Under the pieces are notes generated by a model. That model searched no databases, was not told the origin of the DNA, and saw only the letters and a program-made list of their open reading frames with translations. Of a DNA stretch of 53,088 nucleotides, positions 5,233-8,176 are shown in pieces. The first letter of the stretch is position 1; the number at the start of each line of letters is the position of its first letter. The stretch is from Thermotogae bacterium. Lineage in GTDB: Bacteria > Thermotogota > Thermotogae > Mesoaciditogales > Mesoaciditogaceae. The DNA lies in NCBI GenBank assembly GCA_026988035.1, contig JALSLY010000047.1, positions 1-53,088 of the forward strand. The letters are read 5' to 3'. The position numbers and the translations under genes are program-made.

Positions 5233-6681
5233 TTGAAAATCGCATTTTTCAACCCACAAGGTAATTTTGATGCAAAAGACAGTCATTGGACCTCCCATCC
5301 CGATTTTGGTGGCCAGCTTGTCTACGTTAGAGAAGTTGCGATCGCTATGGCAAAGATGGGCACCGATGTAGACATAATAACAAGAAAAATAGAAGATCCA
5401 GGTTGGCCCGAATTTGTTTCTGAATTTGACTATTACAAGAACATCGACGGTGTCAGGATCGTTAGAATAAATTTTGGTGGAAAAAAATTCCTGCCAAAAG
5501 AAAAATTATGGCCTTATTTGAAAGACTATGTAAAAGGGATAGAGGCTTTTTACATCTCAGAAAAGAAAATGCCTGATTTCATAACAACTCATTACGGAGA
5601 TGGTGGAATTTCCGGTGCACTGTTTTCTTCCAAAACCAATATTCCTTACTCTTTTACCGCCCATTCTTTAGGGGCCCAGAAGATGGACAAATTACAAATT
5701 ACAGGAGGGAATTTTGATGAAATAGATGCCAAATACAATTTCTCAACACGAATAGCAGCAGAAAGAATCGCCATGAAGTACTCGGCATTCAATGCAGTAA
5801 GTACTTCTATGGAAAGATTCGAGCAATATTCACATAAATTGTATGAGAAGTGGATAAATGTGAAAGATGATAGCAAATTCCGCATTATCCCACCCGGGGT
5901 GAATTTGAGTATCTTCAACTCAAAAGAATGTGCAGACGATCGAATGGTTGAAAAAAAACTGAACAAGACTTTGAGCGAACACTCAGATCGCAAACGTGTA
6001 AATCTTCCACTCATAACTTTATCCAGTCGAATAGATCCCAAAAAAAACCAAATCTCAGCTCTCAAAGCGTACGCCTCAGACAAATGGTTGAAAAAAAATG
6101 CCAATCTTCTAATAGTTGTAAGAGGTATGAAAAATGTTTATGAAGAATATAAGAAGGCTAATAACTTTGAAAAAGGTGTGCTCAAAGAGTTGGTTTCTTT
6201 CATAGAAGAAAACAACTTGAAAGACAAGGTATTTTTCTTTGATGCAAATGGACAGAATGAACTTTCATCTCTTTACAGGATCTTATCTAAAAAAGGATCT
6301 ATCTTTTGTAACATCGCACTTTATGAACCATTTGGACTTTCCATAATCGAAGCCATGGCATGTGGTCTTCCGGTAGTGGCTACAAAAAACGGGGGGCCAT
6401 CTGAAATACTGGAAGAATCGGGCCAAAATTATGGCATTTTAGTAGAACCAGAGAACTTCCAAAGCATATCCAATGGATTCAAAATTCTTCTAAAGAATAA
6501 GCAAAGATATGAAAAATACAAAAAGACTGGTATTGAAAGAGTTGTTTCAAATTATACGTGGGAATCAACTGCAAAAGAGTATTTAAGGGCTATAGAAGAG
6601 AAGCTAAGCGTTTCTTACGAAACCCCCAAAGTACCTGAGTATTTTCTCTTTGGGAAGCTCGCACCAAAACTTGAATTTTGA
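5233..6681 (+). CDS. GT4 glycosyltransferase, sucrose-phosphate synthase-like
   Basis: A 482-residue GT-B fold enzyme. The N-terminal segment (FNPQGNF, FGGQLVYVREVA, THYGDGG, TAHSLG) is that of the sucrose-phosphate synthase group, which joins a nucleotide sugar to fructose 6-phosphate. The C-terminal half has EPFGLSIIE, the GT4 E-x7-E motif that contacts the nucleotide sugar. The start is TTG with GGAGG at good spacing. The kinase just upstream could supply fructose 6-phosphate. No sucrose-phosphate phosphatase gene is in the window. A mannosylfructose-phosphate synthase or sucrose synthase activity cannot be excluded. Confidence 0.82.
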   Translation: MKIAFFNPQGNFDAKDSHWTSHPDFGGQLVYVREVAIAMAKMGTDVDIITRKIEDPGWPEFVSEFDYYKNIDGVRIVRINFGGKKFLPKEKLWPYLKDYVKGIEAFYISEKKMPDFITTHYGDGGISGALFSSKTNIPYSFTAHSLGAQKMDKLQITGGNFDEIDAKYNFSTRIAAERIAMKYSAFNAVSTSMERFEQYSHKLYEKWINVKDDSKFRIIPPGVNLSIFNSKECADDRMVEKKLNKTLSEHSDRKRVNLPLITLSSRIDPKKNQISALKAYASDKWLKKNANLLIVVRGMKNVYEEYKKANNFEKGVLKELVSFIEENNLKDKVFFFDANGQNELSSLYRILSKKGSIFCNIALYEPFGLSIIEAMACGLPVVATKNGGPSEILEESGQNYGILVEPENFQSISNGFKILLKNKQRYEKYKKTGIERVVSNYTWESTAKEYLRAIEEKLSVSYETPKVPEYFLFGKLAPKLEF

Positions 6682-6697
6682 AAAAAAGAGGTCTGCT

Positions 6698-8176
6698 ATG
6701 CTTTTTTCTATCATCAAAACTTTGATTTATTGGATTGCTATTCCGTTCGGAACGATCGCAATCTTTAACATTTCATCAAAAGTCCTTTTCCACTTGAATT
6801 TCGGGATTGGTCTTGTAATTTTCGGGGTATTTTGGTCTTCGTTGGCAACTGCTTACCTCGTTTTGGATGGACATGGAACACCTTTTTCTGGAAAACATTC
6901 TCCAAAGAGACTGGTAACATGTGGCCCCTATTCCATGTCAAAGCACCCTCTTTATTTCGGCTATATGATGTACACATTGGGATTGGTGTTACTCTTTAAT
7001 CTTACGCTCATATGGATATGGATACCATCGGTATTTTTTATGCTCATCTTGAGCCTTTTTGAAGAACACAGGCTCTTGAAAAAATTTCCAAACCATGTCA
7101 CATATAGGAAAGGCAAGCCTTACTTTATACCTCTGAAAAAATGGAGTGTGGATCCCACAATACAACCACCTTTTCTCTTCGCATTTCTTTACATAATTGG
7201 GAAAATATTGATTCTTTTCTTGTATGACGTTAAAAGCGTTGGAAAAGAAAAAATTCCCGATCCTCCTTATCTCATTGTATCCAACCATTCTTCTTATTTT
7301 GATCCATTTTATCTCATGGACACAAACAACTCTTACATGCGTTCTCCGGTTACCTGGAGTCATTACAATGACATGAAATGGTTGTTGAATAACGTTGGAA
7401 TGTTTTCGGTGAAACGTTATACTATTGATACTTCGGCAATAATCAATATCATTAGAACACTTAAAAAGGGAGGTATAGTTGGACTATTTGTGGAAAGTGA
7501 AAGAAATTGGGATGGGAAACCATTAAAGGTCAAAAACAGTATAGTTCACTTTCTTGAATCGGTAAAAGTTCCCATCCTACCTATGCGAATAGAAGGAGCA
7601 CATCTTGCATGGCCCCGATGGGCAAAGCATTTTCATGTTGGAAAGATAAAAGTTGTGATTGGAAATGCGCTAAATCCAAAAGAATACCAAAAAGCATTGG
7701 ATTTTGTCTTGAAAGATACCGTTCCACAAAACTCACATTACAAAGACTACCGCGGAATAGAATCGTATCTGTGGCAATGCCCAAACTGTAAAACAATCGG
7801 CTCTATCAGATCATTCAAACACGGATTCGAATGTTCCCACTGCCATAAAATATGGCTTTCTCCTGATATTAAAAAGGTACGTGAAATACATGAACAAATA
7901 TATCCAAAATCCATTGAAAATTTGCCAATATCCGATGAAGCCATTGTAAATGAATCAGAATCCAAAATCTCACTGTTCACAGATCATCTTAGAGTAGCAG
8001 AAGAAAAGTTACAAATATCGGCTATAAAAGCCGCTCTTGTGGAATCGCGCCACGAGCTCTACATCTACACAAAAAAGTTGCTCAAAATAGTTCCAAGCAA
8101 GACTTCACCTTTGATGTGGAAAGAGTGGATCGATTTTCTAAAAAGAGATGATCCAGATTACTGGGGCTACAAATAA
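6698..8176 (+). CDS. Fusion: isoprenylcysteine methyltransferase-like membrane domain + PlsC-type acyltransferase + zinc ribbon
   Basis: A 492-residue protein starting at ATG 6698, which has a GAGGT site (the open frame reaches back to 6650). Residues about 1-150 are hydrophobic helices with GPYSMSKHPLY at 76-86 and EEHRL at 122-126, the pattern of ICMT/PEMT membrane methyltransferases. Residues about 160-330 resemble 1-acylglycerol-3-phosphate acyltransferases: the catalytic NHSSYFD lies at 196-202, while the usual FPEGT block is altered to FVESERN at 264-270. A four-cysteine zinc ribbon follows (C361, C364, C379, C382), then a charged tail of about 100 residues. The combination suggests a membrane-lipid modifying enzyme; substrate unknown. 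It lies 16 bases after the glycosyltransferase, probably in one operon. Confidence 0.75.
   Translation: MLFSIIKTLIYWIAIPFGTIAIFNISSKVLFHLNFGIGLVIFGVFWSSLATAYLVLDGHGTPFSGKHSPKRLVTCGPYSMSKHPLYFGYMMYTLGLVLLFNLTLIWIWIPSVFFMLILSLFEEHRLLKKFPNHVTYRKGKPYFIPLKKWSVDPTIQPPFLFAFLYIIGKILILFLYDVKSVGKEKIPDPPYLIVSNHSSYFDPFYLMDTNNSYMRSPVTWSHYNDMKWLLNNVGMFSVKRYTIDTSAIINIIRTLKKGGIVGLFVESERNWDGKPLKVKNSIVHFLESVKVPILPMRIEGAHLAWPRWAKHFHVGKIKVVIGNALNPKEYQKALDFVLKDTVPQNSHYKDYRGIESYLWQCPNCKTIGSIRSFKHGFECSHCHKIWLSPDIKKVREIHEQIYPKSIENLPISDEAIVNESESKISLFTDHLRVAEEKLQISAIKAALVESRHELYIYTKKLLKIVPSKTSPLMWKEWIDFLKRDDPDYWGYK

Follow-up and report, generated by a model that had tools for sequence, protein, structure and literature searches.

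The question raised by this locus is whether a membrane methyltransferase-like domain, an acyltransferase domain and a zinc ribbon are truly joined in one protein of 492 residues, and what an enzyme built in this way might do. The window, i.e. the whole stretch of DNA analysed here, is 53,088 nucleotides long and comes from a Thermotogae bacterium. An earlier note on this sequence had reported the fusion, and the motifs on which it relied (GPYSMSKHPLY, NHSSYFD, FVESERN and CPNC-x14-CSHC) were all found at the places it gave. Pfam domain matches and the recurrence of the same single ORF in many genomes confirm that several domains share one frame. The three domains named there stand, while the layout was incomplete, as a fourth, C-terminal domain had been overlooked. 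In order from the N-terminus, the protein is thus composed of a PEMT/ICMT-type membrane domain, a PlsC-type acyltransferase, the ribbon, and the C-terminal domain (Table 1).

Table 1. Coordinates of the fused gene, its parts and two further genes in the window
Feature	Position	Strand	Basis or remark
Fused gene, 492 aa	6698..8176	+	single ORF, 492 codons, open throughout
Shine-Dalgarno-like AGAGG	6687..6691	+	6 nt upstream of ATG 6698; from sequence
PEMT/ICMT-type membrane domain, residues 1-147	6698..7138	+	PF04191, 34.7 bits; profile matches to solved ICMTs
GPYSMSKHPLYFGY (RHPxYxG motif), residues 76-89	6923..6964	+	alignment and profile match
EE motif, residues 122-123	7061..7066	+	varies in some relatives
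PlsC-type acyltransferase domain with N-terminal membrane helix, residues ~158-345	7169..7732	+	PF01553; aligned to solved PlsC 5kym
HX4D catalytic motif, H197-D202	7286..7303	+	invariant in 22 aligned members
ExxRxWD(G) block, residues 266-273	7493..7516	+	E266, R269, W271, D272 invariant
Zinc ribbon CPNC-x14-CSHC, residues 361-382	7778..7843	+	four cysteines invariant; weak Pfam ribbon matches
C-terminal domain, residues ~418-482	7949..8143	+	PH-like by sequence pattern only; homology to C-terminus of core-only proteins
GT4 glycosyltransferase, sucrose-phosphate-synthase-like neighbour	5233..6681	+	best profile below cut-off; not a conserved partner
Separate canonical PlsC-like LPA acyltransferase, same genome	19253..20182	+	separate clade in tree

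The ATG at 6698, also chosen in the earlier note, is the likely start because a GAGG Shine-Dalgarno sequence precedes it by 6 nt; an alternative in-frame TTG at 6650 would add 16 residues. A frame or assembly artefact was considered and excluded, since many independent genomes carry this frame undivided and every part of it shows a low dN/dS.

The fused ORF is present in 29 of 103 Thermotogota genomes, which represent three families, and outside this phylum in two genomes that belong to one other. All four parts form one ORF in 9/10 genomes of the window's own family (f1), in six genomes of family f10 (of which one copy is truncated where its contig stops) and in 14 genomes of family f6 (one without the first membrane helices), while contig-end fragments were detected in two further f6 genomes. 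Outside the phylum, the PEMT domain, the acyltransferase and the ribbon occur together in one of 287 genomes (G108), and a second such fusion (G390) was found when the four genomes of that small phylum were searched. No fused homologue was found in viral contigs or in plasmids. The possibility that the domains belong to two separate proteins in close relatives was also checked, and no close relative was found to encode them in two genes. Comparison of the window with its nearest relative, G008 (79% identical), gave, in order of the parts, dN/dS values of 0.10, 0.11, 0.06, and 0.12, three of the parts having a high dS, so every domain of the fused protein is under purifying selection (0.06-0.12). 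The fusion is therefore real, and it is conserved in one Thermotogota branch and in one other phylum. In one genome (G017, L066:7277-10369), two strongly diverged copies of the fused gene lie in tandem.

In the acyltransferase, PF01553 matches residues 178-298 with 51.8 bits (cut-off 23), and the same model was matched in 22/22 members. Alignment to the solved PlsC 5kym (E=4e-7) places NHSSYFD on NHQSLMD and FVESERNWDGK on FPEGTRSPDGK, and catalytic H197, D202, E266, and R269 are invariant in 22/22 aligned Thermotogota members. The FVESERN block, previously described as altered, does differ from most relatives, which have P in place of V, with E266 and R269 invariant. The alteration is a lineage-specific change of P to V or I that spares the catalytic E and R. 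With the model of PlsC proper (LPA acyltransferase, TIGR00530), the score is 51.5 bits and does not reach the cut-off of 102.95. Genomes carrying the fused gene also encode a separate canonical PlsC, and the fused protein is for this reason not considered to be the housekeeping enzyme; it follows that its acceptor is probably not lysophosphatidic acid. In the tree, the acyltransferases of fused genes and the housekeeping PlsC of the same genomes fall on opposite sides, with weak support for the split (75/77).

The N-terminal domain is recognized by PF04191 (PEMT) at residues 35-129 with 34.7 bits (cut-off 25), while PF04140 (ICMT) remains narrowly under its cut-off on the window protein (23.8 versus 24). 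Neither the isoprenylcysteine methyltransferase model NF040696 (13.8, cut-off 160) nor that of LmtA lipid A 1-phosphate methyltransferase, TIGR04571 (16.7, cut-off 325), is reached. A profile built from 18 relatives for the structure search matches the solved ICMT structures 4a2n (E=1.3e-8) and 5v7p (E=2.7e-7), in agreement with the ICMT-type fold proposed earlier for this domain. The RHPxYxG and EE motifs of the PEMT/ICMT superfamily are linked to SAM binding, and both are present in the window protein, as KHPLYFG and EE. In addition, G76, P84, G95, and P145 are invariant in 22 aligned Thermotogota members. By these resemblances the N-domain is most similar to SAM-dependent methyltransferases. 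Both motifs are kept in f1 genera g1, g3, and g4 and in f10, and in f1 genus g2 the second E of EE is replaced by N or D. In f6 genera g13 and g14 (L060, L061, L034, L040), RHPxYxG is eroded to RHPFN, RHPFS, RQPLY or RHPVT, and EE to QE, RE or IE, although the acyltransferase motifs of these proteins are intact.

The four cysteines of the ribbon are invariant in 22 aligned Thermotogota members, and the segment weakly matches several Pfam zinc ribbons. About 110 residues follow, the last ~65 of which show the strand pattern of a PH-like barrel and a closing helix with a conserved LMW (residues 472-474). This region is homologous to the C-terminus of the core-only family introduced further on (hhalign probability 84%, E=7.6e-6). 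A sub-threshold match to bPH_11 (E=0.028) was obtained only in a member from the other phylum, and no PDB match was found for the domain. AlphaFold (AF2), supplied with an alignment of two sequences only, gave long uninformative helices with a pLDDT of 35 for the whole protein and 63 for the C-terminus. A PH fold can be suggested here only as a lead.

Core-only proteins are 350-430 residues long and are comprised of the acyltransferase, the ribbon and the same C-terminus, without the PEMT domain. They occur in Thermotogota families f5, f7, and f9 and in several f6 genomes, which carry the fused form as well, and beyond Thermotogota in G103, in G256 and across the phylum of G243. Comparison of neighbouring genes disclosed no PEMT gene beside core-only genes, including that of G256, a genome of the same family as G108, in which no PEMT frame lies upstream of the core gene. 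Furthermore, the core-only Thermotogota of f7 and of f9 genera g29-g31 have no PEMT-domain match at E<=1e-10, and the core is thus not dependent on a separately encoded PEMT partner. Because the core occurs without PEMT in other Thermotogota and in other phyla, it represents an independent acyltransferase family to which the PEMT/ICMT domain was added.

In the tree of the acyltransferase-ribbon core, fused proteins from Thermotogota fall into a single clade (97/93), and those from the other phylum cluster with core-only proteins. A single clade of all fused proteins is rejected on the acyltransferase core (p-AU 1e-5) and not rejected by the PEMT domain alone (p-AU 0.395), the other-phylum sequences in these tests having long branches and skewed composition. 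One fusion followed by losses and two separate fusions may each account for this pattern.

Some core-only genes have in-frame stops and are apparently decaying (L047 in G018, L077 in G081, L044 in G084, L049 in G080). A core-only gene is also repeatedly followed by an often-overlapping gene for a membrane protein without a Pfam match (L042:8883-10223, L045, L046, L050, L078-L081, and L043, where it is split), which we take to resemble a GltS glutamate symporter.

The best explanation for the window protein, to which we would assign an even chance, is a membrane-bound lipid-modifying enzyme with an acyltransferase core and a fused, likely SAM-dependent, methyltransferase. Its constant part would be a PlsC-type paralogue that carries a zinc ribbon and ends in a PH-like domain, and this core would transfer fatty acyl chains to some acceptor that is not the lysophosphatidic acid of the housekeeping reaction. 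The PEMT/ICMT-type domain, fused ahead of the core in this lineage, would most likely act as a SAM-dependent methyltransferase on the head group of the same lipid, in the same membrane. In short, the enzyme is best explained as an acyltransferase for lysolipids or glycolipids with no housekeeping role, to which most members couple a SAM-dependent methyltransferase. Acylation by the predicted acyltransferase is well supported by the invariant HX4D and ExxR motifs and their alignment with solved PlsC, and methylation by the N-domain is plausible. Catalysis by either domain, a shared substrate, the identity of that substrate and the PH-like fold are what we infer from sequence. The general suggestion of the earlier note, that the protein acylates and modifies a lipid, is consistent with these data. 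A more far-reaching version, in which one bifunctional enzyme couples acylation and methylation of a single membrane lipid to yield an undescribed class of Thermotogota lipids, its methyltransferase half having been recruited, possibly twice, to a widespread PlsC-zinc ribbon family, is rather unlikely in all its parts.

Observations that count against the explanation of a lipid-modifying acyltransferase with a fused methyltransferase are the decay of the ICMT motif in f6 genera g13 and g14, where the acyltransferase residues never vary, and the presence of a complete core without the domain in many genomes (f5, f7, f9 and other phyla), in most of which no PEMT homologue was detected. Both speak for a rival in which the protein performs acyl transfer alone, with the PEMT/ICMT domain as a membrane anchor or another non-catalytic module, for example a SAM-sensing one. 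We regard an anchor or sensor role as a serious rival and a real possibility, if not the one we would choose. Against it, the window's genus and most relatives keep both RHPxYxG and EE intact, motifs that a mere anchor would not need, and the N-domain has a dN/dS (0.10) no higher than the acyltransferase. For the window protein, the likeliest role of the membrane domain on motif grounds is therefore to methylate a lipid head group, an activity that part of f6 may no longer possess.

Neighbouring genes were compared for hints of a substrate, and neither a constant neighbour of the fused gene across the compared genera nor a conserved neighbour indicative of a substrate was found. In the window and in G008, the fused gene is preceded by a GT4 glycosyltransferase and a PfkB sugar kinase. 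In genera g3 and g4 the genes ahead of it encode MnmG and a CBS-DHH protein, and in g2 they vary. In f6 it is the last gene of an operon-like series that includes a DMT transporter and a response regulator/histidine kinase pair; in f10 an AAA-VWA-DUF4895-Rce1-like run precedes it. The CPBP (Rce1-like) protease gene of f10 lies immediately upstream of the fusion (L062:9521-10105, L064:8966-9559, L065).

Rce1 and ICMT are a pair in CAAX processing. The direct succession of Rce1-like and fused genes in f10, together with a PEMT-Lgt fusion in G256, could speak for maturation of lipoproteins or prenyl/acyl-proteins, in which the ICMT-like part methylates and the PlsC-like part acylates a membrane-anchored protein. 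We consider this improbable, as the Rce1-like neighbour is limited to f10, CPBP proteases are common, and the acyltransferase is of the glycerolipid-acyltransferase type. A slightly smaller probability still is given to the tailoring of a glycolipid made by the adjacent glycosyltransferase, as proposed in the earlier note. A gap of 16 nt separates the two genes in the window, the pair is retained in G008, and Thermotoga maritima is known to contain acylated diglucosyl lipids (PMC8788747), but the glycosyltransferase is sucrose-phosphate-synthase-like and has a PfkB sugar kinase as its neighbour, which fits soluble sugar metabolism, and is not next to the fused gene in any genus other than the window's. 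With no neighbour constant among the compared genera, this partnership is unsupported. A reading of the N-domain as an NADPH-dependent reductase, from the related fold group of ERG4/ERG24, steroid reductases or DUF1295, in a protein that reduces and acylates a lipid, is hardly credible, since a weak DUF1295 match in most members and sterol/steroid reductases at the tail of the profile search (E=0.03-0.09 only) are opposed by SAM-dependent ICMT structures with E-values about six orders of magnitude better.

Compared with known systems, the fused protein has in common with PlsC (PF01553, TIGR00530, 5kym) the HX4D, GxFxxKR, and ExxR motifs, the N-terminal membrane helix and, in most members, the PIxP region. 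It differs in its ExxRxWDG signature, the ribbon, the extra C-terminal domain and the PEMT/ICMT domain in front, in addition to its score under the TIGR00530 cut-off and its clade apart from the genome's own PlsC. With PEMT/ICMT methyltransferases (PF04191, PF04140, 4a2n, LmtA, MddA) it shares membrane helices, RHPxYxG and EE, and homology at the profile level, but it is joined to an acyltransferase and reaches no equivalog cut-off, so that its substrate may belong to any of several classes (amine, phosphate, thiol, carboxyl). Core-only proteins (f5, f7, f9, part of f6, G103 and the G243 phylum) have the same acyltransferase, ribbon and homologous C-terminal domain, and differ in the absence of the PEMT/ICMT domain and, in several cases, in the adjacent GltS-like transporter gene. 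In Aas-type bifunctional acyltransferases, a PlsC-like domain is likewise joined to another lipid enzyme, which is there an acyl-ACP/acyl-CoA synthetase, whereas the partner in the fused protein is a membrane methyltransferase-like domain.

Curated scores place both halves in known superfamilies, the window protein being under every functional equivalog cut-off, and the libraries scanned hold no curated model specific to the PlsC-zinc ribbon-C-terminal family. No description of the domain combination was found in an incomplete literature search. The fused protein is thus a new combination of known enzyme families, undescribed as far as checked. Unusual acylation of lipids does occur in Thermotogota, since Thermotoga maritima produces both acylated diglucosyl lipids and membrane-spanning phosphoglycerol lipids (PMC8788747); no link of the fused gene to these lipids was found. 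Only part of the genetic basis of unusual lipids in the phylum has been explained. Should both halves be active, the architecture itself would point to a lipid product and offer a handle on uncharacterised Thermotogota membrane lipids. The wider point is a PlsC-zinc ribbon-C-terminal acyltransferase family that extends over several phyla and to which methyltransferase domains have been added.

Fusions of PEMT domains to envelope enzymes recur, as indicated by two further cases, which count in favour of a lipid-modifying enzyme with a fused methyltransferase. In G256 (L113:965-2155) the PEMT domain is joined to prolipoprotein diacylglyceryl transferase (Lgt) in a fusion cut by the contig end, and in G307 (L093:2-1231) to a polysaccharide deacetylase domain.
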